Positions 16,096-40,100 of a DNA stretch of 64,000 bases are shown here, one piece after another (position 1 is the first letter of the stretch; every line of letters begins with the position of its first letter). Source of the DNA: a virus; IMG/VR virus record IMGVR_UViG_3300020141_000226, positions 1 through 64,000 of that record; one strand, 5' to 3'. A program made the position numbers and the translations under genes. Under the pieces are notes generated by a model, which saw only the letters and a program-made list of their open reading frames with translations, was not told the DNA's origin and did no database searches.

Positions 16096-17178
16096 ATGGC
16101 AGAATCACTTAGCGGAAATCGAGCAGTTACTCCTAACGAAGCTAAAAAGAGCATTCGTAAGTGTGTAAAGATTAAGCGTCCAGTTTTTATGTGGGGCGCC
16201 CCAGGTATTGGTAAATCCGATATCGTTAAACAAATTGGTGACGAACAAGGTCGCGACGTTATTGACGTTCGTTTGTCACTTTGGGAACCCACTGACATCA
16301 AAGGTATTCCTTATTACAATAGTGACCAAGGTACTATGACTTGGGCTCCGCCTGCTGAACTGCCTACTGATCCAGAATCTACTGCGATCCTCTTCCTTGA
16401 TGAATTGAATAGTGCGGCTCCCGCTACGCAGGCCGCGGCTTACCAATTAGTGCTTAACCGCCGTGTTGGTACTTATCGTTTGCCCGATGGTGTTAGCATT
16501 GTTGCCGCAGGTAACCGTGAAACTGACAAGGGCGTAACTTATCGTATGCCTGCTCCGCTGGCTAATCGTTTCCTACACTTGGAACTTAAAACTGACTTTG
16601 ATGACTGGTTGATGTGGGCGACTAAAAATCGCATCCACGAACAAGTTGTGGGCTACTGCTCATTTGCCAAGCAAGATCTGTACGACTTTGATCCAAAGTC
16701 TAGCTCACGTGCCTTTGCTACCCCGCGTAGCTGGTCTTTTGTATCCGACTTGCTTATAGACGATGACTTAGAAGATAATACTCTTACCGATTTGGTAAGT
16801 GGTGCCATTGGCGAAGGGCTTGCTGTTAAGTTTATGGCACACCGCAGAGTTGCTAAACAGATGCCTAAGCCCGAAGACATTTTATCTGGTAAAGTACAAA
16901 CTATTAACATCAAAGAGATTTCTGCGATGTATTCTTTGACCACTAGTCTGTGCTACGAACTTCAAGAAGCAGACAAGAAGCAGGCAAAAGATTGGAATAC
17001 CCAAGCAGATAACTTCTTCAAGTTTATGATGGATAATTTTCCAACTGAACTAGTTGTTATGGGAGCAAAGGTTGCGTTGACTAACTATCAACTGCCGTTC
17101 GATGCTTCTAAGATGAATAACTTCGATCGCTTCCACGATAAGTACGGCAAATACATTATCACAGCAATGGAAGGTTAA
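16096..17178 (+). CDS. MoxR-family AAA+ ATPase
   Basis: 360 residues. Walker A GAPGIGKS (34-41) and Walker B ILFLDE (98-103) are intact. VAAGNRETDKG is the sensor 1 strand, and APLANRFLHLEL contains the arginine-finger region. MoxR ATPases act as chaperones that remodel or activate partner proteins, typically together with VWA-domain proteins that contact metal or substrate. Here the partner is encoded 265 bases downstream. The gene has its own host-type promoter, a 5' hairpin and a factor-independent terminator, so it is an independently transcribed unit. Confidence 0.9.
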   Translation: MAESLSGNRAVTPNEAKKSIRKCVKIKRPVFMWGAPGIGKSDIVKQIGDEQGRDVIDVRLSLWEPTDIKGIPYYNSDQGTMTWAPPAELPTDPESTAILFLDELNSAAPATQAAAYQLVLNRRVGTYRLPDGVSIVAAGNRETDKGVTYRMPAPLANRFLHLELKTDFDDWLMWATKNRIHEQVVGYCSFAKQDLYDFDPKSSSRAFATPRSWSFVSDLLIDDDLEDNTLTDLVSGAIGEGLAVKFMAHRRVAKQMPKPEDILSGKVQTINIKEISAMYSLTTSLCYELQEADKKQAKDWNTQADNFFKFMMDNFPTELVVMGAKVALTNYQLPFDASKMNNFDRFHDKYGKYIITAMEG

Positions 17179-17180
17179 TA

Positions 17181-17201
17181 AAGGCCCTTCGGGGCCTTTT
17201 T
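17181..17201 (+). terminator. Factor-independent terminator after the MoxR gene
   Basis: AAGGCCC (17181-17187), loop TTCG, GGGCCTT (17192-17198), followed by a T run. A 7-bp G+C-rich stem with a tetraloop three bases after the stop codon. Confidence 0.9.
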
Positions 17202-17222
17202 CAATTATAAAGGAAAAATAAT

Positions 17223-17390
17223 ATGGCTGTAAAATCTTGGTATCTAAGTATTGTCAGTTCGGCAACGCACAAACCGGTGTTTCATCAGATGTTTTTTACA
17301 GCACCCAAAATGAATGAGTTCATTAAGGAAAATGAACTCGTGGATAAGTATCCAAAACCTGAATTTTATTTTGTCAAAGAAAACTATTGA
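17223..17390 (+). CDS. 55-residue small protein
   Basis: ATG 17223 with an AAAGGA site 8 bases upstream. The frame ends at TGA 17388-17390. The product begins MAVKSWYLSIVSSATHKPVF and ends FYFVKENY, aromatic rich. It sits between the MoxR terminator and the promoter of the VWA gene, in a place where nothing else would explain the ribosome-binding site. Function unknown. Confidence 0.6.
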   Translation: MAVKSWYLSIVSSATHKPVFHQMFFTAPKMNEFIKENELVDKYPKPEFYFVKENY

Positions 17391-17415
17391 CGAAATGGTA
17401 AAAAGACTATATAAT
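17387..17415 (+). promoter_or_regulatory. sigma70-type promoter for the VWA gene
   Basis: TTGACG at 17387-17392, a 17-base spacer and TATAAT at 17410-17415. An AAAGGA ribosome site precedes ATG 17444. The -35 overlaps the stop of the 55-residue gene. Confidence 0.85.
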
Positions 17416-17443
17416 AGTAATACACTAACAAAAAAGGATTTGT

Positions 17444-18712
17444 ATGTCAAGTGTAATGAAACAAGAACGTACTAAAAAAGCTGTAGCCACTAAAGAGTAT
17501 ACAGCATCTGAAAAGTCAAAAATTATTGACAAACTAATTACAGCACGAGTAGGTTTACTCTTGCGCCATCCGTTTTTTGGCAACCTAGCTACTCGCCTTA
17601 AACTAGTTGATGCGTCAGACTGGTGTTCAACACTCGCTACTGATGGTCGTCACTTCTATTACAATAATGACTTTGTAAACAAACTTAAACCTAAAGAAGC
17701 AGAGTTTGGATTCGCGCACGAAGTTCTACACAATGTTTTTGATCACATGGGTCGTCGAGATCATCGTGATCCTTCGTTGTCTAACATTGCCGCTGACTAC
17801 GCTACTAATCAAATTCTTGTAGATGAGAAGATCGGTGAAGTTCCAAACTTCATGAAGATCTACCAAGACAACAAATACCGCGGCAAAAGCTACGAAGAAA
17901 TCTACGACGAAATTTACGAGAAGGCAGTTAAAATTGATTTCAGCCAGCTTGGTGAATTGTTAGACGATCACCTCGACGGTGAAGGCGACGACGAGCAAGA
18001 CGGCGATGGTGAAGGCGACGAGAATGGAGATAAAAAAGGCAAAGGTCGTCCTCGTTTAACTGAAGAAGAAAAGAAAGCTATTAAGGACGAGATCAAAGAA
18101 GCAATGGTAGCCGCGGCACAGGCCGCAGGTGCTGGCAGGGTTCCAGCAGGTGTTCAGCGCATGATCCAATCTTTTACTGAGCCTAAAATGGACTGGCGTC
18201 AGATGTTACGTATGAATATCCAAAGTATTCTAAAAAGCAATTTTAGTTTTAGTCGTCCTAACCGCAAGTCACAACATTGCGGAGCTATCTTGCCAGGTAT
18301 GATGAATGAAGAAACTATCGATGTGTCAGTTGCCATTGACATGTCAGGTTCTATCTCGGATAAAATGGCTCGAGACTTCCTAAGCGAAGTTAAAGGTATC
18401 ATGGACGAATACGTAGACTTCAAACTCGACTTGTGGTGCTTTGACACTGAAGTTTATGGCTACGCAAAATTTACAGGCGATACAGCTGATGAAATTATGA
18501 GCTACGAATGTAAGGGTGGTGGTGGCACAGATTTTGATGTAAACTACGAATTTATGAAGGCAGAGGGCATTGAGCCAAAACGCTTCATTATGTTTACTGA
18601 CGGATATCCTTGCGGAAGCTGGGGAGATGAAAACTACTGCGAAAGTCTGTTTATTATCCACGGAAATGATAGCATAATTTCTCCATTCGGTCAGACCGCG
18701 CATTATAAATAA
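17444..18712 (+). CDS. Metallopeptidase-like/VWA-domain protein, MoxR partner
   Basis: 422 residues. The N-terminal half has FAHEVLHNVFDHMGRR with the zinc metallopeptidase motif HExxH (residues 92-96). A low-complexity acidic linker (Asp/Glu/Gly, residues ~180-200) follows. The C-terminal third is a von Willebrand A-type domain with the metal-binding DMSGS (299-303), a GGGGTDF segment and TDGYPCG. This two-part layout matches the putative metallopeptidase/VWA-like (DUF2201) family that accompanies MoxR ATPases. Function in phages is not established. Substrate processing or complex remodelling of a host target is a fair guess. Confidence 0.85.
   Translation: MSSVMKQERTKKAVATKEYTASEKSKIIDKLITARVGLLLRHPFFGNLATRLKLVDASDWCSTLATDGRHFYYNNDFVNKLKPKEAEFGFAHEVLHNVFDHMGRRDHRDPSLSNIAADYATNQILVDEKIGEVPNFMKIYQDNKYRGKSYEEIYDEIYEKAVKIDFSQLGELLDDHLDGEGDDEQDGDGEGDENGDKKGKGRPRLTEEEKKAIKDEIKEAMVAAAQAAGAGRVPAGVQRMIQSFTEPKMDWRQMLRMNIQSILKSNFSFSRPNRKSQHCGAILPGMMNEETIDVSVAIDMSGSISDKMARDFLSEVKGIMDEYVDFKLDLWCFDTEVYGYAKFTGDTADEIMSYECKGGGGTDFDVNYEFMKAEGIEPKRFIMFTDGYPCGSWGDENYCESLFIIHGNDSIISPFGQTAHYK
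18704..18711 (+). promoter_or_regulatory. Late-promoter consensus TATAAATA
   Basis: A perfect T4-type late core TATAAATA overlaps the last codons of the VWA gene, 13 bases before the next start. The predicted leader would be very short, so it may serve the following three-gene group or be fortuitous. Confidence 0.45.
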
Positions 18713-19863: not shown

Positions 19864-19890
19864 AAAAAGGACTCCTAGGAGTCCTTTTTT
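19863..19890. terminator. Bidirectional terminator between converging operons
   Basis: AAAAAAGGACTCC and GGAGTCCTTTTTT form a near-perfect palindrome around the centre TA, with A and T runs on the two sides, so it can stop transcription from both strands. It lies between the plus-strand stop at 19863 and the minus-strand stop at 19889. Confidence 0.92.
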
Positions 19891-21898
19891 AATATACCAT
19901 TACTTCTATAGTCCCAGTTTCGCCATTGAAATCTTGGAGTGCCTTTGCCAGCACCGCATATGGATTTGTTCTATGTCCGTGACGTCTTACTTCAGCATGT
20001 CCGGGTACATTAGAGGAAACTAATATATCTCCTCGCTTAACTGGACCGGTTACTTTACAAGGTACTCGACCTTTTAGGGCAATAGCAACACCGCCATCTA
20101 AGTCACTATTCATAAGATATGCTGGATTTGTTGAAACAATACCAACTATCATTTCGCTTTCGTATGTACTACAAATAGTGACTTCTTTTTCTCCACCAAT
20201 TTGTAAAACTGTGCCTGGTTCGTAATCAGCATCTGGCAAATATCTTTCTGCCAAGTCAGCGTACTGTGCCCTGGATGCAACACCAGTAAATGTATTAGCA
20301 TATACTGTAGCAAATCGGTTTCCTGTTTGACCAATATCTCCGACTCCATTAGTTCCATCTTTTACAATGTTAACTACTGTAGGAGTTCCTATAAACTTGG
20401 TCGCTGAAATTTGGTTAGCAACAAAATTACCACTGCTGTCTCTAAAGACTAAAGTATTATTGTAATTTGATACAGCCGATGTCCAAGAACTTGTAGAAGC
20501 TAAACTAACTGTAAAAATACCGCCCTCAACTGCTACTTGGCCGCTAATGCCAAATCCAGAAGTGGCACCTGACTGAACATAGTTACCTGTAGTGTCGCTA
20601 CCTAAAGCGACCGAATTAGTTATAACTGTAGCAGTTAGGGTAAAATTAGACGACCCATCAAATGTAGCACTACCACTTAAATCTCCAGATAGATTCACTG
20701 TTCTAGGAGTAGCCCATTTTGTAGCCGAAGTAGAAGAACTTGCGGCAACTACTGTGGCATTCAATGTAACATTACTACTACCGTCGAAAGACACAGTTCC
20801 TGATAAATCCTGGCCTAAGGTAATTGTTCTAGCAGTAAGCAGTTTTCTTGCTGTAGTTGCCGTAGATGCTTCTCCAGTTACAGTACCTGAAAATGTTCCG
20901 TAAAAATTGTTAGCATATATGTTGTCAAATTTCTTAGTAGCGGATCCGATATTAGTTACCTGTCCGCTAGCAATAGTTGGTAACAAACTTAAACCAGATG
21001 CAGCATCAAGATTTAATATGTTATAAAGGGTTCCGCCGACAGTGGCATCAAAACCAATTGTTGTAAGATCAGATGTAATTCTTGGGCCAGTTGCTTGATC
21101 GATATATAATTTTAAATTATTTGTATTAATGGACAATCCATTAGCTGAATTGATAAACACATTAGAACTGAATCTTGGATCAGATCTAGTAACATAGTTT
21201 CCAGCAGTTTCTCCGCCTAATCGCAAACTATCTGATGATGTTCCCCATAGCATGGGATCTCCGGAGGCAGCTGAAGCAGAAATTCCTGTAGCATCTGTTC
21301 CGATAATGTTTATACCTTGTTTAATTCCAGTAAATCCAGTTACAGGAGTCAATGAGCCTATGGTAAATTCATCATTAGAACTAATAGCAACTGTAGAAAT
21401 AGATGTAGGATCACTGTAGCTTTGAATTTGATGAGATAGAACATAGTGGCTAAACCCGTCTGTGTCTTTAAGGACTACAGGAGTAATCGTAGAATTTCCA
21501 GCAAGATCAGAATACTGAGGACCGATTAAAGTATACGCCGATCCGTTGTAGTAATATAATTTTTTCAACGACTCATTATACCAAAAATCACCTGCCCTTA
21601 AGGTAGTAGGTTCTGCTTGGCTGCTTTCTAACACGGGAAGACCTTTGAACTCTGTTCCGTTAAAAAACTTTATTTTTTTGTTAGTAGTATCATACCATAT
21701 TTGCCCCACTAAAGGACTAGTTGGTTGCTTAGAGTTGGCAAAATTTTCTAAAAGTTTAACGAAATTTTGATTAACAACTTGGCCATAACCGGCATAATTT
21801 TTTCCAATTAGTGTTAAATCGCAAGCTGATGAACTTACAGAACCATCGTCTACTGAAGTTAATTTTAAACCATTTGTTTTGTTAATAATATATGCCAT
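19889..21898 (-). CDS. Tail fibre protein, paralogue 1
   Basis: 669 residues. The N terminus carries the domain shared by all four tandem fibre genes here (LTLIGKNYAGYGQVVNQNFV, LLENFANS, GQIWYDT), probably the particle-attachment part. The middle has two copies of a beta-strand repeat (LGQDLSGTVSFDGSSN and LSGDLSGSATFDGSSN). The C-terminal ~130 residues (ADLAERYLPDADYEPGTVLQ, GRVPCKVTGPVKRGD) are also found at the end of the next fibre gene and probably form a trimerisation or tip domain. Last gene of the minus-strand virion operon. Receptor binding is inferred from class. Confidence 0.85.
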   Translation of the reverse strand: MAYIINKTNGLKLTSVDDGSVSSSACDLTLIGKNYAGYGQVVNQNFVKLLENFANSKQPTSPLVGQIWYDTTNKKIKFFNGTEFKGLPVLESSQAEPTTLRAGDFWYNESLKKLYYYNGSAYTLIGPQYSDLAGNSTITPVVLKDTDGFSHYVLSHQIQSYSDPTSISTVAISSNDEFTIGSLTPVTGFTGIKQGINIIGTDATGISASAASGDPMLWGTSSDSLRLGGETAGNYVTRSDPRFSSNVFINSANGLSINTNNLKLYIDQATGPRITSDLTTIGFDATVGGTLYNILNLDAASGLSLLPTIASGQVTNIGSATKKFDNIYANNFYGTFSGTVTGEASTATTARKLLTARTITLGQDLSGTVSFDGSSNVTLNATVVAASSSTSATKWATPRTVNLSGDLSGSATFDGSSNFTLTATVITNSVALGSDTTGNYVQSGATSGFGISGQVAVEGGIFTVSLASTSSWTSAVSNYNNTLVFRDSSGNFVANQISATKFIGTPTVVNIVKDGTNGVGDIGQTGNRFATVYANTFTGVASRAQYADLAERYLPDADYEPGTVLQIGGEKEVTICSTYESEMIVGIVSTNPAYLMNSDLDGGVAIALKGRVPCKVTGPVKRGDILVSSNVPGHAEVRRHGHRTNPYAVLAKALQDFNGETGTIEVMVY

Positions 21899-21901
21899 TT
21901 T

Positions 21902-24127
21902 TTATCCTCTTACTACCATTACTTCAATTATACCGATTTCGCCATCTGCTAATTTACCTAATGATTTTCCAATCAATGTGCCTAATCCATAATTAGAGCA
22001 CACTTTAGCGTGTCCAGGCATCGAAGAAGTTACTAATAAATCTCCTTTAGAAATAGGTCCAATTGCTTTACACGGTACTCGACCAGCAAGTGCTATACAA
22101 ACTCTAGTACCTTCTAATTTACTATTCATAATATAAGCCGGATTAGTTGTAACAATTCCTGCTACTGCTTGATCATTAGACATACTAGAGATAGACACAT
22201 CATGCGTATCTTCTCGAACAATAGAAACTACAGTACCTGGCTCATACTCTATATCAGAGGAGTAATACTCAGCAAGGTCGGCATACGTTGATCGTAGTCT
22301 CGATCCAGCAGATAGATTCCAATTGCCGGTAATCGTACCAGTAGTTGAAGTTGATCCAGCATTCAATGTTCGAGTTGTAAAAGTACTACCAGTACCTACA
22401 GTCCAATTGCCAATAATAGTTCCGGCTGTGGATGAAGATCCAGCGTTTAGAGAAGTCGTTTTAAACGTTCCTTGAGAAGTATCTAATGTAGATCCTGGTT
22501 GTAATATCCAATTACCTGTTATCGTAGCACTATTTGTTGCAAGGCCAGAATTTAAGGATTTACTATAAAATGTTCCGTTTCCAATGTCTATTGAACTGCC
22601 GGAATCATATAACCATCTTCCTGTAATAGTACCATTAACAGTACTGCCGCCTGTCGATATTATTTTAGAATAAATTGTTCCATTTGTTACATCTAACACA
22701 CCAGTGTCAAATTTTAATCCACTAGTACCCAGTAGACTCCATGCTCCGGTAATGGTTGCTGTTGTTGCTGCACTACCAGCATTTAATGATCTAGATTTGA
22801 AAGAAGCCTGAGAAGCATCAAGTTGACTACCTGAGTATAGCGACCAGTTTCCAGTAATTATGCCAGCAGTTGATATATCTCCACTAGTTATTTCCTTAGT
22901 TTTTACAGAACCTGATGTAATATTAACATCACCGGTTTGTAAAGTTAAACTGCCTGTTTCAAAAGTTAAAGAACTATCGTCGGTAAATTTCCAAGCACCT
23001 GTAATTGTACCAGTTGTAGTAGCATACCCTGCTGACAGCGTGTCTGTTTTAAATGTTCCTTGGGTAGCATCTATAGTGCTATTGCCATCTAATGTCCATT
23101 GCCCGATAATGTCGCCAGTCGATGCGCTACCACCAGCATTGATAGCTTTTGCGAAAACACTACTCCATCTGGCATTATTAGCACCTAGGGCAATTCCACC
23201 GTCTGTAGCAGGAGAAATTTTACTACTAGCACCTAGAACAAATTGCCCGGTCATATTCACGGAAGATATACTTGTTCCCCCTGAAATTTCGCTTGTAAAA
23301 ACTTTTGAAAATTTATTATTTGCGCTGCCTAATACTGTTGTACCGTAAGGAAGTATATTGCTAGCTTTAATCACAAGATCACTAAGAGAATCAAGTACTA
23401 AGTTACTTGATGTAGTATAAATTCTTGACGAAGCAATTGAAATACCTTCAGTATTATTAAATGTCCAACTTCCGGTAATCGTTTCGTTTCCAGTATTTGC
23501 CGCATATGGAGTATCAGTAGAAACACTAGATCCGGTTCTAAAAGTCATACCGTTGCCGACCTGTGTTATACCTACTGAATAAATTGCTTCTGTAGACTTA
23601 ACATTAAAAGAATCTGCCGAGATAACACCGACTATATTTCCATTTGTGTACATTATAATACAGGCATGGGCAGTAGAACTAGAATCTAAAATTGAAGCAG
23701 ATTTCATCTGTGTTTCAGCAAAGCCAGAAACCTTTGAAGGACCAATTAAAGAATATGTGGAAGCATTTTTTACATAAAGTTGTTCGTTATCTGTATCAAA
23801 CCAAAGATCGCCAAGTTGGGAGTAGCCTGGTTCAGTATCTTGGAGAGCAATCACTGAGAAAATTTTCCACTGTGTTCCGTCCCAAACTTTAGGTTTCATT
23901 ACAGAAACATTTTTATCAAACCAAATTTGTCCTTGAAGTTTGTTAACTGGAGCATTTTGTCCGGCGAAATTTTCTAGCAAGAATAGAAAATTTTCATTTT
24001 GGATTTCACCATAACCGGTAACATCTTTGCCTACAAAATTTAGACTTGAAGATAACTGTCTATCGACTACTCCGTCTTCGATAGTTGTAAATGATCGTCC
24101 GTCAAAATTGTTTAAACTATAAGGCAT
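21902..24127 (-). CDS. Tail fibre protein, paralogue 2, with heptad-quantised repeats
   Basis: 741 residues. The shared N-terminal domain (LNFVGKDVTGYGEIQNENFL, LLENFAG, GQIWFD) is followed by a fibre shaft. Seven repeats beginning G-x-W and ending T-I-T lie at 22328-23104, with unit lengths 35, 49, 35, 42, 35, 35 and 28 residues. The C-terminal ~130 residues match paralogue 1 (ADLAEYYSSDIEYEPGTVVS, GRVPCKAIGPISKGD). The start is close behind paralogue 3, with 11 bases between. Receptor contact is likely through the C-terminal tip. Confidence 0.85.
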   Translation of the reverse strand: MPYSLNNFDGRSFTTIEDGVVDRQLSSSLNFVGKDVTGYGEIQNENFLFLLENFAGQNAPVNKLQGQIWFDKNVSVMKPKVWDGTQWKIFSVIALQDTEPGYSQLGDLWFDTDNEQLYVKNASTYSLIGPSKVSGFAETQMKSASILDSSSTAHACIIMYTNGNIVGVISADSFNVKSTEAIYSVGITQVGNGMTFRTGSSVSTDTPYAANTGNETITGSWTFNNTEGISIASSRIYTTSSNLVLDSLSDLVIKASNILPYGTTVLGSANNKFSKVFTSEISGGTSISSVNMTGQFVLGASSKISPATDGGIALGANNARWSSVFAKAINAGGSASTGDIIGQWTLDGNSTIDATQGTFKTDTLSAGYATTTGTITGAWKFTDDSSLTFETGSLTLQTGDVNITSGSVKTKEITSGDISTAGIITGNWSLYSGSQLDASQASFKSRSLNAGSAATTATITGAWSLLGTSGLKFDTGVLDVTNGTIYSKIISTGGSTVNGTITGRWLYDSGSSIDIGNGTFYSKSLNSGLATNSATITGNWILQPGSTLDTSQGTFKTTSLNAGSSSTAGTIIGNWTVGTGSTFTTRTLNAGSTSTTGTITGNWNLSAGSRLRSTYADLAEYYSSDIEYEPGTVVSIVREDTHDVSISSMSNDQAVAGIVTTNPAYIMNSKLEGTRVCIALAGRVPCKAIGPISKGDLLVTSSMPGHAKVCSNYGLGTLIGKSLGKLADGEIGIIEVMVVRG

Positions 24128-24138
24128 CTAGGTCTCCG

Positions 24139-26382
24139 TTATGCTAATCTAATAATCCAAGAACCGTATGTACTTGTATCAGCTGTGTCAAAAGCAGTTG
24201 TTACATCAACTGTCATATCATTAATATTTGTTCCTGTTCCCCAACTTGTAATTATACCTTGTAAGAAATTAACTTGGGTATCTGTTTCTCTGATAATAAC
24301 ACTAGTACCGGTACTGTCAAACGCTGTTTTCTTATTATTTACAGTAAATGTTTTGACCCCAGTTGTGATAGTTGCCGTACTATTAGATATCATATAGTTA
24401 ATGTCGACATCGTTAACAAATGTCCAATATCCATTATCGACTACAAATAATTTCACTGTTCTCGTGATTGTTGGAGGAGGAGGAGTAATTGTTACATTAC
24501 CAGCCAAGTCAAAATCAGTAACAACTAGTGTAGATGTATTCGAAACTGTACTAATATAAGAAGATACTGTATTAGACGAAGTAAATGCCACGTTAGTAAC
24601 ATAGTTTATTAAAGTTTTAATGGTAGATGTGTTAAGATTACTTAATACATACGTTGCAGTATTTTGAGTATACCTTGTACATAATACTGTACATCTAGAT
24701 CCAGTTGGTTGAGCATAATAGGGATTGCCATAACCGTCTACAGGAATTGCTAAATCTAAATAAGCAATAATTTCATCGTTAATGTTTTGAAAATCAGTAA
24801 TGTCAAGGCTTAGTGTGTAGGGTTTTCTACCTACGTATCCGCCCAACGATAGTGCTATTTTATCTTCAAAATATTGCTTAGTGACAGCAGTAGTACCGAC
24901 GTCAGTGTCCTCTGTTGCCCCCATTCCAATAATTTTAGCTGTAGTTGTTGTTCCGGCAATAACAGTTGTTAGATTAACAAACCCTGTACCTGGTACTAAA
25001 TTTAAATCAGTGAATGCCGCAGATTGAATGTAATTACTTGTTAGTGTAAGATTTGTTACGGTTAACAAAGACAACGTTGGCAGATTAGTTAATCCCGGAG
25101 CACTTAAAACCCTAGCACCTAATCTATAATATGTCGGCTGATTCGGATCTCTTTCAATGACCGAATCACCATCTATTCTATAACTCGAGGTATTAGATAC
25201 ATTATTGATATTATAACTAATATTTGATTCCCAAGCCTGCTGATTCCTACTGTATAATAATGTGTGGTTTGTTGTTCCACGAAGAATGATACCGCCGCCA
25301 TCTGCTAATACGTTAGTAGCAGTAACTCCGTTAGTAACACCTAACTCAATATTCTTATCGTTAACCAACAATGTTGTAGACTCAATATAACTTTGTGTCC
25401 CCATAACATCTAAGTTACCTCTAATTACAACGTTGCCTGCTAGATCAATATCTTCTTGAGGATCACCTGTTAGTATACCTACTCTATCATTAACTGAATC
25501 GATATGAACGCCAATGGCCCCTGTTCCTTGAGATACACTATTGTATCTTAATTCTAGTGCCTCGCCTTGAACCGCTCCAAGTATGATACTAGTAGCGGTG
25601 TATATGGTATTTCTAACATATAAAACAATATTGGATGCTGTGCCAATTTCCAAACCATCATTGTTAACAATGGCCAAAGACCCTGTTGTCTCTTGGTACT
25701 GATTGTTTAATATGAATGAATTTGTATTAAGTCCACCGGCAATCGAGTCAGCACTTGTAGCTGTTCCATAAAATTTAATTCCAGGAATAGTTGGATTTAG
25801 TGTAACTCCAGGATATAATGTAGTAACTGTAGCAGTAAAAATATAAAATCCAGCTTCCGGATTAAAATCAATTTGACTATCAGTCATGGCAGCTATTGCT
25901 TGACCATTAGAATAATATATAGATAGAGGGATATCGCTGTTTGTTATATCGGCAAAGTTTTCTACTAACCATCCCTCTTTACCAGTAGCATCTGAATAGT
26001 TTTTTCCTGCGTTGATCCAATTGGCACCATCGTACCATTTTAAAATCTGGGCTGTTGTGTCAAGCCACATGTCCCCACGAACAGATCCGGCAGGTTCAAC
26101 ATTGCTTACTGTTGGACCGCCAACAGGTTTAAATGTTCCTGTATTATATACTTTTAATCTGCCTTCGGAGGTGTCAAACCAAGTTTGACCAACTACCGGT
26201 GATGTAGGCTCGACCAAGTTAGCAAAATTTTCTAATAAATGGACAAAATTAGTATTAAAGTAAGCCCCGTAGTTATTAGTGTTCTTTCCAACTAAGGTTA
26301 AACTTGTAGAAACCTCGTCAATAGATTGATCCGCAATTACTGCTAAAGTTTTTCCGTTTGTAAATGTAATTGTGTATGACAT
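24139..26382 (-). CDS. Tail fibre protein, paralogue 3
   Basis: 747 residues with the shared N terminus (LTLVGKNTNNYGAYFNTNFV, LLENFANL, GQTWFDT). The middle contains a beta-helical-looking segment with PQEDIDLAGNVVIRGNLDVM and VLADGGGIILRGTTN, typical of phage fibre shafts. The C-terminal third (VGRKPYTLSLDITDFQNIND onward) differs from the tips of the other paralogues, implying a different ligand or partner. Function as a fibre is inferred from family and location. Confidence 0.82.
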   Translation of the reverse strand: MSYTITFTNGKTLAVIADQSIDEVSTSLTLVGKNTNNYGAYFNTNFVHLLENFANLVEPTSPVVGQTWFDTSEGRLKVYNTGTFKPVGGPTVSNVEPAGSVRGDMWLDTTAQILKWYDGANWINAGKNYSDATGKEGWLVENFADITNSDIPLSIYYSNGQAIAAMTDSQIDFNPEAGFYIFTATVTTLYPGVTLNPTIPGIKFYGTATSADSIAGGLNTNSFILNNQYQETTGSLAIVNNDGLEIGTASNIVLYVRNTIYTATSIILGAVQGEALELRYNSVSQGTGAIGVHIDSVNDRVGILTGDPQEDIDLAGNVVIRGNLDVMGTQSYIESTTLLVNDKNIELGVTNGVTATNVLADGGGIILRGTTNHTLLYSRNQQAWESNISYNINNVSNTSSYRIDGDSVIERDPNQPTYYRLGARVLSAPGLTNLPTLSLLTVTNLTLTSNYIQSAAFTDLNLVPGTGFVNLTTVIAGTTTTAKIIGMGATEDTDVGTTAVTKQYFEDKIALSLGGYVGRKPYTLSLDITDFQNINDEIIAYLDLAIPVDGYGNPYYAQPTGSRCTVLCTRYTQNTATYVLSNLNTSTIKTLINYVTNVAFTSSNTVSSYISTVSNTSTLVVTDFDLAGNVTITPPPPTITRTVKLFVVDNGYWTFVNDVDINYMISNSTATITTGVKTFTVNNKKTAFDSTGTSVIIRETDTQVNFLQGIITSWGTGTNINDMTVDVTTAFDTADTSTYGSWIIRLA

Positions 26383-26386
26383 AAGT

Positions 26387-28669
26387 TTAGGTCTTTATTA
26401 TATAGTTAATGGCCAAATACGGATTCATCACGTTTGTAATAGTGCCTGAAACAGTTCCGCCAGCGCCTGCTGTACTAGTAGTAATAGTGGCAACTGCTGA
26501 GCCGCCTGAGACAACACCATTAAGAGCGTCTGTAAAAGCAGTCTCAGGAGGAGTATCGGCACTAGGCACCCGAAAGGCTTTGCCCAGGCTACTTGACGAT
26601 TCGTTATCCATATCGTCAAATCCGATCATCATCCTTCCGCGCAAATCTGGCAATTTGAATTGATTAGTTAATGATGTTTTTCCGTAAGTATAACCGATAG
26701 CAGTATATAGGTAAGGATAATCATTTTTAGTTACGATAGATCCGTCACAGAACAGCCAACCACTAGGTGGATTTATTCCGGCATAGGAAATAATCGATCC
26801 TGACGGTACAAGGCTTCCTACGCCGCCCGGAGCACCAGAACCTTGATAGTTAATTTCTTTTAAGAAATTTCGTTTAGTAATTTTGTTAAGACCGGTTACT
26901 GGAGTCCCCCAATTTACAGAAGGATCTAGTCTTGATCTATTAGCAGAATCAGTAAATCCTGTAATGTTACCAGTACCACTAATACTTGAAACTTTAATTG
27001 TAATATCGTTAGTAGGGGTTGCGCCGCCTAAGAGAGCACCGCTAATTTTTACAACTGAACCAACTATATACCCGGAACCAGCATCTTCAATTCCGTCGTC
27101 GATAGTATCACCAATTACATAAGCACCACCTCTTCGATACACGTTAAAAGTAGCACCACTACCTCTATTGGCGGTTGTATCCCTAGCAAAATAGTAAGCA
27201 TCTTGAACAGCGATTAACATTACATCGGCGTCAGCTGATGCGGATGCAGATGGTTTAGAAATAAGAGCCGATGCTTGAATTTCAGTTACAAAGTTTTTAG
27301 CATCGCCGAGACCACCATAAGAAATTCCAGAACTTGCTACATCACCTGACATGGTAAATGATGCTGTACTGCTTAATTGACTAGCATACAAGGCTGTTCC
27401 TTGTAAACTGCCGACAAACTGTGCGGCATAAATTGAAGCAAACTGTGTTGAGCTTGTTCCAATATTGTACTTTATATTAGTTAACGGATTGATAATCGTT
27501 TTAGGATTCAATAAAGAACTGTCGGAAGATTTACCTATTAAGATAGAATCTTGGAAAGTAGCGGTACTACTAAAAGTTGATGTACTTGCCAAGCTAATAG
27601 ATTTTCCAAAAACCGCAGATCCGGCAATAGTTAATACGCTGGTCGGGGATGATAAGGTTACATTTTTAGCAATGGTTATTGATCCGTTAACATCTAAGTC
27701 TACAGCAACTGCCGGAACCGAATTGGCGTTTCCTATAGTTACTTTTTTATTTCCGCCAATAGTATCAGCATCGCCGCCGTATATAGCTAAAATATCATTA
27801 TAGCTCTGATTGTTTAAAATTTGAAATTTAAATCTACTGCCAGCAACTGAGCTAACAAACGTGTTATTAAAAGTAGTATCTTTCTTAATTTGGAAGGAAG
27901 GATCAGTTCCAATAGTAAGACCTTGTCTCACGTTAAGTGTACCATTAACTGAACTGTCAATATCGTTTCTTAAGAAAGAATTGGCAGTAACATAAGTTTT
28001 AGTTGGAACTGTTACCAACAAATTCTGAGCTGCCAACGCAGTTCCGTTATACAGCGATGAATTAGCAGACGTTAAATTGTTTCCTGCTTTTAAAGCTTCA
28101 AATCCTTCAATCTTTTGTTGAGGAATAAACGATTCAGAAGTTATTATTTCTATAACTTGGTCGTCTACATAATTCTTTACGATCTTATGACTAGTACCAA
28201 AGATGTCAGTAACTTCATCTGGGTAGCTACCTGTCTTTAATATACTGCTGTATGAAGGGCCTACTAAAATCCAATTATTCCCATCTAATGTTAGACTTAG
28301 TTGAGCTTTAGAAATGTCTACCCAAACATCACCAGGGGCGGCGCCACTTGGTTTAGATTCTTGTTGATACAGTCCGTTAATAGGTTTCCAGTTTGCGCCT
28401 GCTGCAGTACCGTCAGTAATCCCTAATTTTTTATTTGTCGAGTCGCTTGTATCAAACCATAATTGACCTTCGATAGGATTATTAGGAGGACTGCCGCTGG
28501 AATGATTTTCTAGTAGATGTAAGAAATTTGTAGAAAGTGCCTGAGCATAACTAGAAGCATTCTTACCAACAAAAATTAAACTTGTTTGATCAACGTTTAA
28601 CTTATTATCTTCAACTGATAAGGAACTACTAAACTTTGTTGGATCAGAAAAATAAATCGTATAAGACAT
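26387..28669 (-). CDS. Tail fibre protein, paralogue 4, with tail-collar domain
   Basis: 760 residues. Shared N-terminal domain (LIFVGKNASSYAQALSTNFL, LLENHSS, GQLWFDT). The C terminus contains a phage tail collar domain: PPSGWLFCDGSIVTKNDYPY, then FKLPDLRGRMMIGFDD, and a terminal MNPYLAINYIIKT. This domain is also found in T4 gp12 short tail fibres and many receptor-binding proteins. A glycine-rich linker (GAGGTVSGT) precedes the last strand. First of the four tandem paralogues in transcription order. Confidence 0.88.
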   Translation of the reverse strand: MSYTIYFSDPTKFSSSLSVEDNKLNVDQTSLIFVGKNASSYAQALSTNFLHLLENHSSGSPPNNPIEGQLWFDTSDSTNKKLGITDGTAAGANWKPINGLYQQESKPSGAAPGDVWVDISKAQLSLTLDGNNWILVGPSYSSILKTGSYPDEVTDIFGTSHKIVKNYVDDQVIEIITSESFIPQQKIEGFEALKAGNNLTSANSSLYNGTALAAQNLLVTVPTKTYVTANSFLRNDIDSSVNGTLNVRQGLTIGTDPSFQIKKDTTFNNTFVSSVAGSRFKFQILNNQSYNDILAIYGGDADTIGGNKKVTIGNANSVPAVAVDLDVNGSITIAKNVTLSSPTSVLTIAGSAVFGKSISLASTSTFSSTATFQDSILIGKSSDSSLLNPKTIINPLTNIKYNIGTSSTQFASIYAAQFVGSLQGTALYASQLSSTASFTMSGDVASSGISYGGLGDAKNFVTEIQASALISKPSASASADADVMLIAVQDAYYFARDTTANRGSGATFNVYRRGGAYVIGDTIDDGIEDAGSGYIVGSVVKISGALLGGATPTNDITIKVSSISGTGNITGFTDSANRSRLDPSVNWGTPVTGLNKITKRNFLKEINYQGSGAPGGVGSLVPSGSIISYAGINPPSGWLFCDGSIVTKNDYPYLYTAIGYTYGKTSLTNQFKLPDLRGRMMIGFDDMDNESSSSLGKAFRVPSADTPPETAFTDALNGVVSGGSAVATITTSTAGAGGTVSGTITNVMNPYLAINYIIKT

Positions 28670-31159: not shown

Positions 31160-34100
31160 TTATTGACCTATTAAAGGATCTCCTGTTTCGCTGTCTAATG
31201 TATCGCCAACTTCAAGTACGATATACTGATCTGTGTCTACGTTCTGACCATAGTAGTATTTATCTGGTACAAAAGATGGCATCTCTAACAAGAAATTAAT
31301 CTGTTCAACACTCCTCTTATGTAGGTCGCTAAACTCAAAACCTACCTGATTAACTGTTTTAGATATAACTTTAATTTCAGAATTTACTATTGGTAGGAAA
31401 TCTAATATTAGTGTATTAGTTCCCGTAATGCTAAATTCTGGTAATTTAGTTACATTGCTCAGTTGTGCGTTACTATTTAATTCATCTGAATCATAAGCAA
31501 CTGTTGTATCTGTTACCGTGAACACAGTTTCGGGTTTACGCAACCTGCGTCCTTGATAATAAACATCAATTTCATTGTAGGATAATCCGCTTATCTTGCT
31601 GACAGAATAAGTAGACGTTCCTACGGAAGAATTATCATAAACTGCCCAGAATGAAGCAGTTGTTTGCCAAACTGTTTGTTTTTGTGTGACAGGAATAGTT
31701 TGTACAACACCTTGATCGATGACTAACGAGCTTTCTTTATGTACAGATTTAATGCCTGTGCCCAAGGTTCCTCTTCTAATTTGAATTAACTTATTACCAG
31801 AAATCCCCATAAACTCAATACGCTCACCGTCAATTAAAATAACGCCAGGGCGGTATCTTGACTGATCAGGTTGAGATAACGCTTCAGCATCTTCAACAGT
31901 AATCGTTGTATCTGTAGCAAGTAAATCAGTTGCTAATCTTGTAGAATAATATTGACTCAATCTCTTATAATGAGTCCTTCCAATATTGTCTTGGAACATT
32001 CTGTAGCCAATTAAAGAACTGTTGACTTGATCAGTTACGCTCATTATTACCACGCTATCAGTTGATTCTAAGTGATATGTATCTTTTAATATAACAGTCT
32101 TAAGATCCCTATCAAGTTTATAATCAAAGTCTCTAACTAGAGGAATTCCGTTAACTTCGACCCATACATATTCAATGCTTAACACGGGTCTAGTTAATTT
32201 AAATTGTCCAGATCCTGTACCTTTAAATCTTTCTCTTCTAAACAAGGAATTATCGTGATTAGTAAATGTTGTTACCTTGATCGTGCTCGACGAAGCTACA
32301 TTAACTCTATTTGTGAAGTTTAATTTTGTATCTATTACAGTGTAATCGTGATTCCATAAGAAAGATACTGCGATAGCATCACCATCAGATATAGCATTTT
32401 TATTAAACTCAATTAGGTTATCGTCTTGTCTTAGTCTTAATGTTTGACTGAATGGTCTACGTTTACCGTTAACGTAAACTTCTAAGTGCATTTTATCAGG
32501 TAGCCCTTGAGGATAATCAATATGTTCTTCAAAAGAGAATCTACGTTGTCCGTTTTTCGCAATGTAATAAACAGTGTCTGGAGGCAATAGTCGTATACCA
32601 TCTTTTTCAACAATAAGTTGATTGTGTAAAGGAGCAATATTTCCCGGAGGTTGAGTCAATGTAAATGTAACTGTACCGGATGAAGCAGAAATAACTTGTT
32701 CATTGATTTCGCTATATGCTTTATCAGTACCGGCAAATAACCATACTTGTACAATATCGCCTAAACTTAAATCAGTTGTAAATTTAACTTTTGCTCTACC
32801 TGTTCCGAAAATAGTATAGTCTGATCTTTTCACTCCGTTAACCGTAATGTAAGAGCTCTTAACATCAGTTTTACGAGCAAGGAATTCAAAATTATTTTTT
32901 CCTGTTAACGCTGTTACTGTAGTAACTTCGTGACTTAACAAATACTGGCCGCCAACATTCATTGTGGTAATAGACAGTATCTGAGGCAACGGAGTTTGAT
33001 TTTTAAACGGATCAAAACTTCCTTTGCCAGCATACTTCCAATTGCCGCCGTTTGCTGTGCTATAGAAAACATGACTAGTATTATCTTGAATTGTATTCCA
33101 ATCTACCTCAATTCCTGCTCCGCGAATCGTTCCGTTTCGACCCAAAGCAACACCAGTAATAAATCCAAGGTCGCCGTTGAAGTTAGCGTTCCTCCATGTA
33201 TTTTCGTAGATTATTTCAATATATTGATTTGTTCCATCACTGTACAAAACAAGTTCATACTGATAAGCAGGAACAGTAGGAGTATTAGTCCTTCTATTGT
33301 AATGTGTTCCCTGGAAACGAAGTCTCCAATAATTAAAATTGCCAACGATTCCTTGATCAAAGAACAGTCCCGGAATCTCTCCAGTAGCCAGTGGGGTGGT
33401 ATTGTTATTACCGGTTCCGTATCCTTGCCATAGGTCACAATATTCAATATAGATAGCAGGGAAAGCAAGGTGTCCTAGTTGTAAAGGAGTATATGAGCTG
33501 TCACCGCCGCCAAAAGTTACGTAACCATTTGTGCCAACATGTAATTCAGTAAACTTAGTACCAAACATGTTCCACTCAAATCCTAAACTATAAGGTCCAG
33601 TGCTTGTGTCATCGCCTGCTGTACTAGCAATAGCAGTACCGACCGCGCCTAACGCAGTGGCAGGAGCTGTACTAAAATATGGGCCAATGATTAATAATTC
33701 TGGATCGTCTAATAAAACTAATTCATTCGTAGAATAATCAATAGTATAATCTGTACCGTAAGTTAACAATCTTCCGTCTAGAATAGCTTCTACAGAAGTA
33801 GAATTTGGCGGGGTTGCTCCGATCGCAAATCTCACTGTTTGACCGTCTGTAATATATTTCTTGTTAACAACCAGAGCAGCCGTTGAACTGTTATATGTAA
33901 AAACATTAATACCTAATGTATCAGATACTTTGCCAGGAAGATTTTCTTCAGGACCATAACTGTTTGTAGTGCTTACAAATTTATCACCGTCGAGCGCAAT
34001 GTCTTCTAGATCGTCTGCTCGAGTTAGCTGTAACTGTCCGTTGAAATCTGTATAATATCCGCCGCCGGAAATATATGTATCAAAGTCTGGGTCAACTACT

Positions 34101-37100
34101 GGAGCAGATCCGTCACTAGTTTCTAATCTAAATGCTATAGTGGCAGTTGAATCATAAATCTTTGCTAGAGAAATTGTGTTAATGTAACCATTGCCCACGA
34201 ATGTAGACGTAGTCCCGTTGTCACCATCAAGCCTAACTGCGTTGTTATCCCAATAGGCATAAATGTTGACTCGCTGGCCCGAGCCAGGAACATACGGTAA
34301 CGTATACACTAGAGGATTAGGATTTACAAAATGTAAACTACTACCCACGGTAATTGAAGTTGATGTGTTTAAATTAATTTTCCATCGACTAAAATTAGTT
34401 CTATCGTATGTAGAAGAAGTTACTACCGCAACACCTGTTGATAAAGTTGCCCCCACTTGAACAAGTTTAATATCTGAATTAGCAGAAATATTAAAGTACA
34501 TCTCTGTTGGACTTGATATACTGTTAGACGCAACAACTTGAGCAGTTACCTTAGGACCTTTAACTTCATATAATCCATCTTCTGGAATAAAATCATCCCA
34601 ATTGTTAGAACCAAAAGGTAGTGTGTCAAATCCCTGAGATGTGCCTAACGGTATCCCTTCAATAGTTACACCAGGATACTCTAACCCACTCATTAATAAA
34701 GTAGCAGTATTTCCAGGCATGCCGTCTGTTGGTTCGTAGTAGTCTCTGATACGATCAACCGCATGATACAGCGACAGGTCTTTGCGGTACTCGATTTGTA
34801 TCAAATAGCCTTGATTTGGTACAGACTCAAGGACTAGATAACCTAATTTTTTAGTGTATCCTTTATATTTCTTTGTAGTTTGTTCAATAGAATAATCACC
34901 TGATAAGATTTTTAATCCATTAACTCTAACTGTAATAAAGTTTTTGTCAGGGTTCGGAGCCCAAGATAATTTAAACTTATTAGTTTGTCCAGTAGAAACA
35001 TAACTGTCTGAGCCTGTCTTTGAAGTAACTTCGTTATATCCAGATACCCTATCAAATTTTAAATGTATGCCAGTTGTACGAATCTTATTGTTTGACATCC
35101 TGATTGAAACTTTGGCAGGAGTTAGATCAGTAGGGCCGCCTCCCCTCAAGTTAAAGATTGGAGTAGCTGTATAACCGGATCCAGGATTTGTAACAATAAT
35201 TTGAGAAACTTTACCTAAAGCAATATATGCCGTAGCTTTAGCACCAGCCCCAGTATCACCAGGTTGTGGCTCAATTTCAACGATGGGCGGATTTGTATAA
35301 CCTGAGCCGCCATCAAAAATTTCAAAACTATCTACATAATATCCGTAATTGTCGGCCCAGGACTTCCAAGGATATTGTGTTAAGTACGGACTTCCAAAAG
35401 TTATCGGAGTAAACTGTTTTAGAGATGTGTTATATATCGCAGGTAAATCAAAATCAGATGTTACAGATTTTGTAATTTCAGTTGCAGTATAATTGCTAGT
35501 AAAATTCCTTATTTTTGTATGATAAGGTTTAGTCTCGTTGATATAATCTTGATAGTAACTTTCGTTATTCAGCTTGTAGGAAGGACGTTGATCTAGACTT
35601 CCTGAGTAATTTATAACATCAATTAAAGATGTTTTAAATGCCCAATCGATAAACTTTTGTTCTGTTAACGCATACTTGACAAGTTTAAAGAATAGTCTAT
35701 TGTTGTATATATTCAAATCTCTTATAAGAATATCTTCTAGGATACCTATTATAATATTCTCAGACTCCATTCCGGGTGTTTGATCAAAATATGTTTGATC
35801 CCATCCGGCTGTTTGATCCCATCCATATATTGAAGATGTAGTGGTCCACAACTCGTCAGATATCTTAACAGTTCCTCGTTCTTGATAAATTAAATCATAT
35901 TGACTATTAAAGTTTCCAGAAGTTTGGCCGGCTACAATTTTTCTTAGCACTTGATATCGACCGTCACCACCGTTTCTAATTTTAACATAGTTTCCGGCAG
36001 GAACATCTGTAAGTACATCTAATTGATATACCTCATCAATGGTAGCAATATAATCTCTAGCGTTGTCATATGTAGGATCTACCCAGTCAATATACTTCCA
36101 ATATATAGTAGTATCATATGATTGTGTATACACTCGTTGATATTCTTTACTTGTGTAATCCCAAACATACTTAGACCACAATCCATTTACTGTAGAATCA
36201 GATTTTACAATTACAGTGTAAGACCTTACTACTAAAGAAGGAGCAGTGATATATCCAGAACCGGGATGTGTAACGTATGCGGTTACTACTTCACCTACAG
36301 CATTAACTTCAGTTTGTATTATCGCTCCAGATCCACTACCTTCAACTTTGACTGTAGGGCCTATCCAGTTTTGCGATGAAACGTTTGAAGCTACAGATCT
36401 TAAATTTAAAGTTCCATACCCGTATCCAGGATCGTCGATAGCGACCTCGGTTATTCTTCCATTTGTAATGCTACATGAAAGTTTAGCTTGTTTTAAATTC
36501 CGTGTGACAAGAATAAAATCTCGTTCTATTAGATCTTCAGCAGAATAATCGTATTCCCCTAATATTGAATTAGGAATTTCATCTTTAGAGTTAAATCTAT
36601 CTAAATTATAAAAGCCGACAATATTTGTTTTAGCAAATATAGAATTTACATATTCTATAGCAACTCGCATTGCGGCAAATCTATCTTTGAACATAGATTG
36701 TCTAGGACGAATAGATGTACCATATTTTAATCTAGACGGTAAAGACGGATCAGGAACTGGATTTCCTAACGAATCTCGACCAAGCAGACTATCAATCATT
36801 TTATGTACCAAATTATCACTTGGGAAACTGTAAGGACTGTTTTCTTGTAATAGCAACCATTCAGTGTGTTTGTTAGTATTACTATCAATAGTGTTGTAGT
36901 CAATTGATAGATTATAACTCTTTCCTGAAATATCAGTCTGTATGTTTGTCAGCATTAAAGCATCAGACGAAATGATAGATGCAAACTTGACTCCCTGTAA
37001 CTTAGGATCAGCGATTAATGCCGCTACATTATAGGCACTAATTTTTCTATCAACTCCCGAAGGAATAGTAATTTTATTTTTAACCCAGTAGTAATACATA

Positions 37101-40100
37101 TTGCTGAAAGAGTTAGAAACTGGGTCCCAAACTTGTTTTACCGATAACACAGAATTATCAACAAATTTAGGTTGTCCGCTAATTCCTTGTACAAGACCGT
37201 CGTTGGTATCAGCTATCAATGCCCATTGAGATGGAAGATACGGAGATTTAACCCATTCGTATACATCGATCATAGAACCCGGGAATGTGTTATTCCAATT
37301 ATTTTTTCTAAATTCTAACTCGCCCTGTTCGTACCAAACATATTTTACTGCGCTTAAATCCCACCATAATTGTCCAACATGGTCATCAAGCCAGTTAGAA
37401 TTTAAATCTACTACAACTCCGGATACACCAATAGAATGAACTGCTGGATCGTATGCTGATTTATATTTTAATTCTTGGTCAGCAACTCCGGAAATCTTGC
37501 CTTTAATAGGGTCAATAATTTCTAAGTATTCAACTACTTCTTCGTTATCTACATTGATAGTTCTAACTGTTCTTAAAGTAGATAGATCAACTAATGGATC
37601 TTGAGACCTCTTTAATTGCCAACTGTTTAATACATCGGTTTTGCTATCAAAGAAATAGATAGACCCTGATTGAACTCCATCGTAAGTTTGTCCGGGCGCT
37701 CCTACAATAATAGATGATCCGCTAGCAAACATGCTTCGACCATATACCTGATTTGATCTCACTCTGCTATCGTATAGGTTTTCAGCATAAACATATTTGT
37801 TATTCATTCTAACAAAAGTAAACACTGCTCCGGAATTTTTAACAGTTGAGAAAAATTGTGTTGTATCAGAATCAAAACTTGTTACTTGGTCTCTCTTAGT
37901 ACTATTAGAATCTAATACATATTTTTGTCCGGCAAGTTGTTTTTGGTAACCGTCAAATGTAACAAAAGGTTTATGTCCAGATCCTACACATGATACAATT
38001 AAAGTTTTATCGTCCGACGATAAGTCCATATTTGTACCAAGGTCATAGCCGTTATTAGTAAACGGATTATCTATTACTTGAGACAATGAATAAGATTCAG
38101 TTACAGAATTAAAATTGTAGATAAAAATCTTTCCAACTTTGGAAATTTTATCTGATGCTCTAGGAGCAGAAATAAACAAATACTCGCCGCCTTGACTCAT
38201 TAATACTTTAAATCCAAAATTATCTCCAGGATTAACCAATGAAGAAATTGCGGAATCGTCAATAGATATTGTTTGTGTACAAGAGTATGTTATAGTGTTA
38301 GTGCTGTTATAATCAAAAACTTTTCCTGCGCCAACTGCGCCAACGGCTATTCTCGATCCAGAATTGGTACCGCCGATACTATTTCCAAACTTGCTTCTTG
38401 CTGTTAAACTTATTGGAGGTTGTAGTCTACAGTTTGTAACAGATACCCCAGAATCAACAATTGAAGTTAAAGAGCTAACATTGATCTTAGTATAATGTAC
38501 GGCGCCCACACCGTCTTGTTCAGGACTTGATACAAATAAAATCTTTTGAGAAGATGTAATATTACCTAAGAAAATTTCCGATCCAAAACGTGCTCCTGCC
38601 TGCGGCTGTGGACTAGCTAGAGCAATTCTAGCAGGAGAGCTGGCCTCTTCAAAATTAATTCTTGTTAATGTAATAAATCCCTGTTCTATATAGTTATTAG
38701 GAGGAAAATATAAACTTGAAGACGACACTGGACTGAATTTGTTTGCTGATAGAGAATATCGAACACCAGATGCTAGTGGAGCTCCGGCAATGATAATATC
38801 ATTGTCGCTGTCAAATTTCATTACTGATCCAAAGCTAGAAACATTTGTTCCTGTAAAATAAGTTTGGATACTTGTTACATTAGGTAAAATATTTCCTGTG
38901 TATGTTAAATCACTGACACCTGGACCTGTTTTTCTATATGTATAAATTCTTCCTGCTGTTTGAGATACAGGAGAAAGATAATTTGGAGAACTAATAGCAA
39001 TATGAGTTCCTTGGGAATTTCCTGTTATAGCATATCCAAATCTTTGATTACTAGTCAACTCATACTCATTATAAGGAGACTCAAACTTATCAATTAAAAA
39101 ATTATCTATCTTTTCATAAACTGCCCACTTAGACTCATCAGAGGTAATATCTGTATTATCAATCCAAACTTTTTCTCCGGTTTCAAATCTGTGAAGTGTA
39201 GGCAAGTCTGCCAAATCGTCAAAGGTTTCAAATCTAGAACTTATAAATTTAAAAATTAATCCAATAGCAGGACTAAATGGTATTGTTAAATCGGATAGAA
39301 CAGAACTAACAATAATTTGATTTAATTCAGGAACAGCTTCAACAGTGTATATTCCATCAACTTGAGAATCAAACTGACTTACGCTTATTAGGTCACCGGT
39401 TCTTAAACCATGGAAATAGTCTGTGGTTAATAACAGAGATACGCCGGGAATATAAATTGCAGCATCTATAACTGTTGTTTCAATTTGTGAATATCTAGTA
39501 ACGTCCCAGTCACCGTTTGAATTAAATCCAATCCATACTGTATCGCCATCCCTGATTCCACGATTGTTGGCAACGTCTAATAAACTATTTTTGTTAAACG
39601 CAGTCGCGGTTACATCGTCTAATCTCACATACCCTGCCGTAGGCAATAATGTACCGCTAGATGCTAATGAATTAGATGTAACAAACGGATTGTTATCATA
39701 GTTATCAGGTTTAATAACAACCTGACTAGGTGTTCTGTAATTTATAAACTCGTTAGGTTCAACTGGAGGAATATCAACAAATTTAACAATTTGTGGATTT
39801 TCTTTAAATTTAGTTTCGTCTAAATTAAATTCAAGAGTCTGGCTTGTTGGAAAAGATCCATACTCTCCAATTCTTACTGCCCAATTTTCATAGAAGTCAA
39901 TGTAACTTCCTTGAGAAACAATACTTGCTTTTCCTAGTTTATCAATAGTATTTTTAGTACCTTTTTCTTTGATAAACCCTTGATAAAATTTGTACTGGGC
40001 AATAGAATCAACAAATATGTTGTCAAGGTATTGTCGAGGACTATATCCAGTTAAATGCTGTGATAGTTGTTGTTGAGAAATATCAAAATTATCTATATCT

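Follow-up and report, generated by a model that had tools for sequence, protein, structure and literature searches.

The shaft of the phage T4 tail-fibre protein gp34, a trimer, has been described as an irregular triple beta-helix (PMC5537660). The C-terminal triple-stranded beta-helix of T4 gp5 instead follows a regular octad, VxGxxxxx (PMC4576200), and is a shaft built from repeats whose length can be altered by adding repeats. The podovirus pre-neck appendage protein phi29 gp12 carries a C-terminal chaperone/autocleavage domain, and the model of the mature phi29 protein ends at the serine that precedes the cut bond (PMC4690869). In T5 pb1, which has a different chaperone, a Ser to Ala change blocks cleavage (PMC4690869). 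Here we analyzed a tail-fibre gene in a 64,000-nucleotide stretch of viral DNA (the window), taken from a virus record of 70,287 bases (IMGVR_UViG_3300020141_000226), in which a first-pass annotation had described a G-x-W repeat whose unit lengths were all multiples of seven.

The repeat is found in P0001, the product of the third of four consecutive fibre genes, all transcribed leftwards (Table 1). The N- and C-terminal PHROG matches of P0001 are to virion and tail fibre families. The tail gene cluster around it contains T4-like baseplate wedge and hub/spike homologues, three fibre paralogues and a collagen-like fibre, and the virus infects bacteria. The four fibre genes (positions 19889-28669; 669, 741, 747 and 760 aa) share the N-terminal domain phrog_14394, so that P0001 has this domain in common with its three same-genome paralogues; it also occurs in jumbo phage virion proteins, and a tblastn search with P0001 residues 1-73 matched RaK2, K64-1, CBB and others. 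Within this cluster, a phage tail collar domain (PF07484) is present in the 760-aa protein, and the C-terminal domain of the 741-aa protein recurs at the end of the 669-aa protein. Adjoining the fibre genes is a gene for a 607-aa collagen-like protein (PF01391; 29335-31158) with many G-x-T/A-G repeats, and positions 31160-45394, more than one-fifth of the window, encode a 4744-aa virion structural protein (phrog_10938). The T4-like hub/spike homologue at 49340-51643 weakly matches the C-terminal trimerisation domain of gp5, and an octad beta-helix may accordingly be encoded in this genome too. At 16096-18712 of this phage genome, an AAA ATPase adjoins a DUF2201 putative metallopeptidase/VWA-like protein.

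Table 1. Features of the P0001 gene, in window coordinates.
Feature	Position	Strand	Basis
Tail-fibre gene P0001, 741 aa	21902..24127	-	ORF and translation
N-terminal anchor-like domain, residues 1-75	23903..24127	-	phrog_14394 in P0001-P0004
Upstream G-S-W segment, residues 219-293 (75 residues)	23249..23473	-	anchor spacing
Upstream G-Q-F unit, residues 294-341 (48 residues)	23105..23248	-	position-specific score match and spacing
Unit A, 35 residues	23000..23104	-	G-x-W spacing
Unit B, 49 residues; blocks SLTFETG, SLTLQTG, DVNITSG	22853..22999	-	
Unit C, 35 residues	22748..22852	-	G-x-W spacing
Unit D, 42 residues	22622..22747	-	alignment to 42-residue units from other viruses
Unit E, 35 residues	22517..22621	-	G-x-W spacing
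Unit F, 35 residues	22412..22516	-	G-x-W spacing
Unit G, 28 residues, one block shorter	22328..22411	-	
Last partial unit GNWNLSAGSRLRSTYA, residues 601-616, linking shaft to C-terminal domain	22280..22327	-	
C-terminal domain, residues 617-741	21905..22279	-	structural match to phi29 gp12 chaperone/autocleavage domain

The C-terminal domain was predicted by AF2 with ten-residue pLDDT means mostly above 90. Structural comparison of this model by VIA-align returned phi29 gp12 (3suc, Z 14.3, rmsd 2.7, 117 residues aligned; 3gqh, Z 14.1, rmsd 2.3, 109 aligned), with a Haloferax tailed virus capsid-portal chain as the next best match (12.7) and with capsid decoration and head-fibre proteins also following gp12. 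In a family profile alignment, T-Y-A-D-L-A-E-Y of P0001 is paired with T-W-S-D-F-A-E-Y of gp12, and the match to 3gqh starts at residue 692, the Asp of the gp12 motif. Residues D617 and E620 of P0001 align with gp12 D692 and E695, presumably the catalytic residues, and neither varies among 39 homologues. Homology of the modelled domain to that of phi29 gp12 (3suc, 3gqh) is well supported, the likeness lying in the C-terminal fold and in a T-x-x-D-x-A-E-Y motif at the junction of shaft and chaperone. The two proteins differ elsewhere, gp12 being a podovirus appendage with Ser at the cut, whereas P0001 has another shaft, an Ala at this position and a place in a T4-like tail cluster. The Peptidase_G2 model (PF11962) matched 19 of the 39 homologues weakly (best 1.7e-6), and homologue L050 reached 24.3 bits against a cut-off of 25. 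P0001 itself did not match PF11962 at E up to 1, and a PDB profile search with alignment A2 gave no match. The phi29 gp12 cut between S691 and D692 corresponds to A616/D617 in P0001. Because A616 takes the place of the serine, self-cleavage at this bond appears doubtful from the sequence, and P0001 is not filed here as an autocleaving member.

Upstream of this domain, residues 342-600 of P0001 (23104 down to 22328 on the minus strand) form seven consecutive units. The counts in the first-pass annotation were right: the G-x-W anchors are spaced by 35, 49, 35, 42, 35, 35 and 28 residues, and the 259 codons account for 777 nt. The TIT or TII said to end every unit is found in six of the seven, while the 49-residue unit ends in IIT. 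The array is a genuine tandem repeat with a dominant period of 35 residues, displaying an identity at lag 35 of 0.24 compared with 0.11 in shuffled sequences (z 6.8). In searches of P0001, the repeat family was covered by no Pfam model or PHROG.

The 35-residue consensus reads G-x-W-x-L ... T-L-x-A-G-x5-G-T-I-T. Units aligned from P0001 and several other viruses share a constant cassette, T-L-Y-S-T-T-L-x-A-G-x5-G-T-I-T-G-x-W-S-L, and alignment of 28-, 35-, 42- and 43-residue units placed all variation in length at a single site, after the W part and before the T-L-Y part. This site holds no block in the 28-residue unit, one in the 35-residue unit, two in the 42-residue unit and three in the 49-residue unit. 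In P0001 the front of the unit (G-x-W to T-L-x-A-G) measures 16, 23, 30 or 37 residues and the tail is fixed at 12. Across all collected units, the tail, counted from the residue following the T-L-x-A-G leucine, almost always has 12 residues, and the front is 14, 16, 23, 25, 29, 30, 31, 36, 37 or 40. Differences of whole 7-residue blocks, as originally proposed, are seen within P0001, most clearly in its 49- and 42-residue units, and in its relatives the blocks are seven to nine residues. Unit length varies locally, in steps close to one strand-turn block that can deviate from it by one to three residues.

Divisibility by seven likewise describes the seven units and fails as a rule. The motif extends further upstream as GQF (residue 294) and GSW (residue 219), with spacings of 48 and 75, neither divisible by seven, and the range first reported was a chosen one, starting just past these first exceptions. 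The common parental 35 accounts for four of the seven lengths, so that only 49, 42 and 28 independently test a step of seven. The probability that all three fit is about (1/7)^3 = 0.003, before correcting for the chosen range.

To collect related arrays we combined a protein search, an alignment search and a further search from the L348 array. About 50 viral contigs carried related arrays, most of these in proteins with a P0001-type C-terminal domain at their end. Fibres of uncultured viruses in IMG/VR (such as L003, L321, L336, L348 and L363) have the same repeat and C-terminal domain as P0001 but differ from it in the number and length of their units, non-multiples of seven included. In place of the steps of seven anticipated for homologues, units of 26, 37, 38, 41, 43, 44, 46, 47, 48 and 52 residues occur beside those of 35 and 42, with array patterns that include 35,35,42; 35,42,35; 35,35,35,43,37,35; 35,37,38; 43,43,41; 37,41,26; 35,35,48; and 35,47, and with single units of 37, 38, 43, 44 or 46. 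A further pattern, 42,43,35,35,42,42, is kept in 13 non-identical viral arrays. This series is identical in L336, L341-L347 and L321 (proteins of about 1800-2070 aa) despite their differing sequences, indicating that unit length is stable over such divergence. Additionally, the 41-, 42-, 43-, 44- and 46-residue units fall in one sequence cluster, indicating that single-residue insertions and deletions are tolerated. The nearest contig, L001, is the same virus as that of P0001 (99.97% identity) and thus offers no length comparison. The L003 array had no tblastn match in cultured phages, DNA pattern scans with a variable gap gave nearly all chance hits among the matches listed, and none of the genome contigs searched was confirmed.

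We then counted multiples of seven among non-redundant units other than those of 35 residues, in proteins other than the window's own. At 60% identity 4 of 28 units were multiples of seven, which is the chance level; the values at 70% and 80% were 11/39 and 16/47, an excess that arises because the 42-residue unit is common. Both the chance-level value and the omission of 48 and 75 from the original range speak for the sevens of P0001 being a coincidence, in a family whose most frequent lengths merely happen to be 35 and 42. We nevertheless consider such a coincidence unlikely, as the three non-parental lengths in this one protein all fit, the inserted blocks resemble strand-turn units in sequence, and 42 is over-represented at the looser redundancy cuts.

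The fold of the array was approached through models and through comparison with T4 fibres. An AF2 monomer model of P0001 was poor over the array (ten-residue means of 42-77, mostly 45-65), and a second monomer model, built from a ten-sequence array alignment, averaged 48 there; such low confidence is expected if the chains fold only together and is not evidence by itself. The low-confidence array model contains four-residue strands seven apart in the last full unit (257-260 and 264-267). In sequence, the variable blocks look like short strands of aliphatic residues separated by Gly/Ser/Asn turns. Similar strand-turn steps, six or seven residues long, can be picked out by eye in the T4 gp34 segments ...INASGLMNVNGTATFGRSVTANG... 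and ...GVTINSGGLTVNS... (boundaries from PMC5537660), and the likeness to T4 gp34 (and gp12), again by eye, covers the apparent aliphatic strands, the Gly/Ser/Asn turns and these six- or seven-residue steps (gp34 residues 1014-1047 and 1105-1128). T4 gp34 lacks a clear sequence repeat, whereas P0001 has its 35-residue repeat and conserved G-x-W. The strict gp5 octad VxGxxxxx is absent from the P0001 array, which has a lag-8 identity below that of shuffles (z -1.3) and a dominant period of 35. The first-pass annotation knew of no described fibre fold with its rule of seven; short strand-turn steps are, however, described in both T4 gp5 (PMC4576200) and T4 gp34 (PMC5537660). Given the gp34 steps and the gp5 octad, a shaft in which every chain grows strand by strand is thus already known.

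Our preferred reading, which we hold with a probability of roughly 0.6, is that the 259 residues form the distal shaft in a homotrimeric tail fibre, an array probably folded as a triple beta-helix, with no special rule of seven. Trimerisation, established for gp34, is for P0001 what we infer from the modelled C-terminal domain only, and a triple beta-helix of the T4 gp34 type is suggested by the resemblance seen by eye. Three chains would wind round one another as in gp34. Every block would contribute a single strand to its chain and could thus be gained or lost while the rest stayed undisturbed; the step would then be as long as a triple-beta-helix strand with its turn usually is. The array leads straight into the gp12-like C-terminal domain, which may act as a chaperone and nucleate trimerisation. 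This domain may then be cut at A616/D617, and the mature fibre would end in a free tip formed by the G-x-W array.

A beta-solenoid formed by a single chain, in place of an intertwined trimer, would agree with the array models, which are all-beta or extended, and with the beta-helical proteins that head the Foldseek matches of the weak array model; these matches are not significant, however, with E values of 0.36 (a beta-helical antifreeze protein) and worse. Furthermore, about five seven-residue sides per 35 residues would make no whole number of triangular coils, blocks appear to be gained singly, and the C-terminal domain belongs to a trimerising type, leaving the solenoid improbable. We would also give only a small chance to the G-x-W array being an undescribed trimeric beta-fibre module, in which none to three strand blocks of about seven residues are added to a fixed cassette of about 28, and which, widespread in uncultured viruses and attached to a gp12-like chaperone domain, would serve as adjustable spacer and exposed tip.

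A shaft built throughout from a 7-residue strand unit, growing in 21-base steps, was not borne out. Identity at lag 7 in the 259-residue array was not above shuffles (z -0.7, against 6.8 at lag 35), lags 14 and 21 gave z values of -2.8 and -1.1, and neither hydrophobics, Gly nor identity displayed a lag-7 periodicity beyond noise. Thus, the array is not built of heptads throughout, and only the blocks inserted in the 49- and 42-residue units look like heptads. At the DNA level, adjacent inserted blocks share 15/21 (B1/B2), 10/21 (B2/B3) and 10/21 (D1/D2) bases; one old duplication (B1/B2) is possible, the similarity of this pair being confounded by protein constraint. Recent 21-base slippage was rejected, with this one suggestive pair and with Tandem Repeats Finder reporting no repeats in the P0001 gene. 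A strand unit of exactly seven residues with growth by 21-base insertions and deletions, despite the divisible lengths of the seven units, 42 as the commonest non-35 length in relatives (70% and 80% cuts) and the B1/B2 pair, is very unlikely in view of the upstream spacings, the absent lag-7 signal, the D1/D2 and B2/B3 pairs and the length pattern constant across 13 related arrays, and as a strict rule it is ruled out by the homologue lengths, the very kind of result that the first-pass annotation had said would refute it.

The P0001 fibre therefore resembles the fibres already known from phages, as an ordinary variant of them, and its steps of seven are real in this protein and form no general rule. 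P0001-type arrays make up a natural series of shaft lengths, spread over this T4-like virus and tens of relatives that are uncultured. The series would be of mild importance: it offers no new folding rule, and it would be useful for understanding how trimeric beta fibres tolerate insertions.
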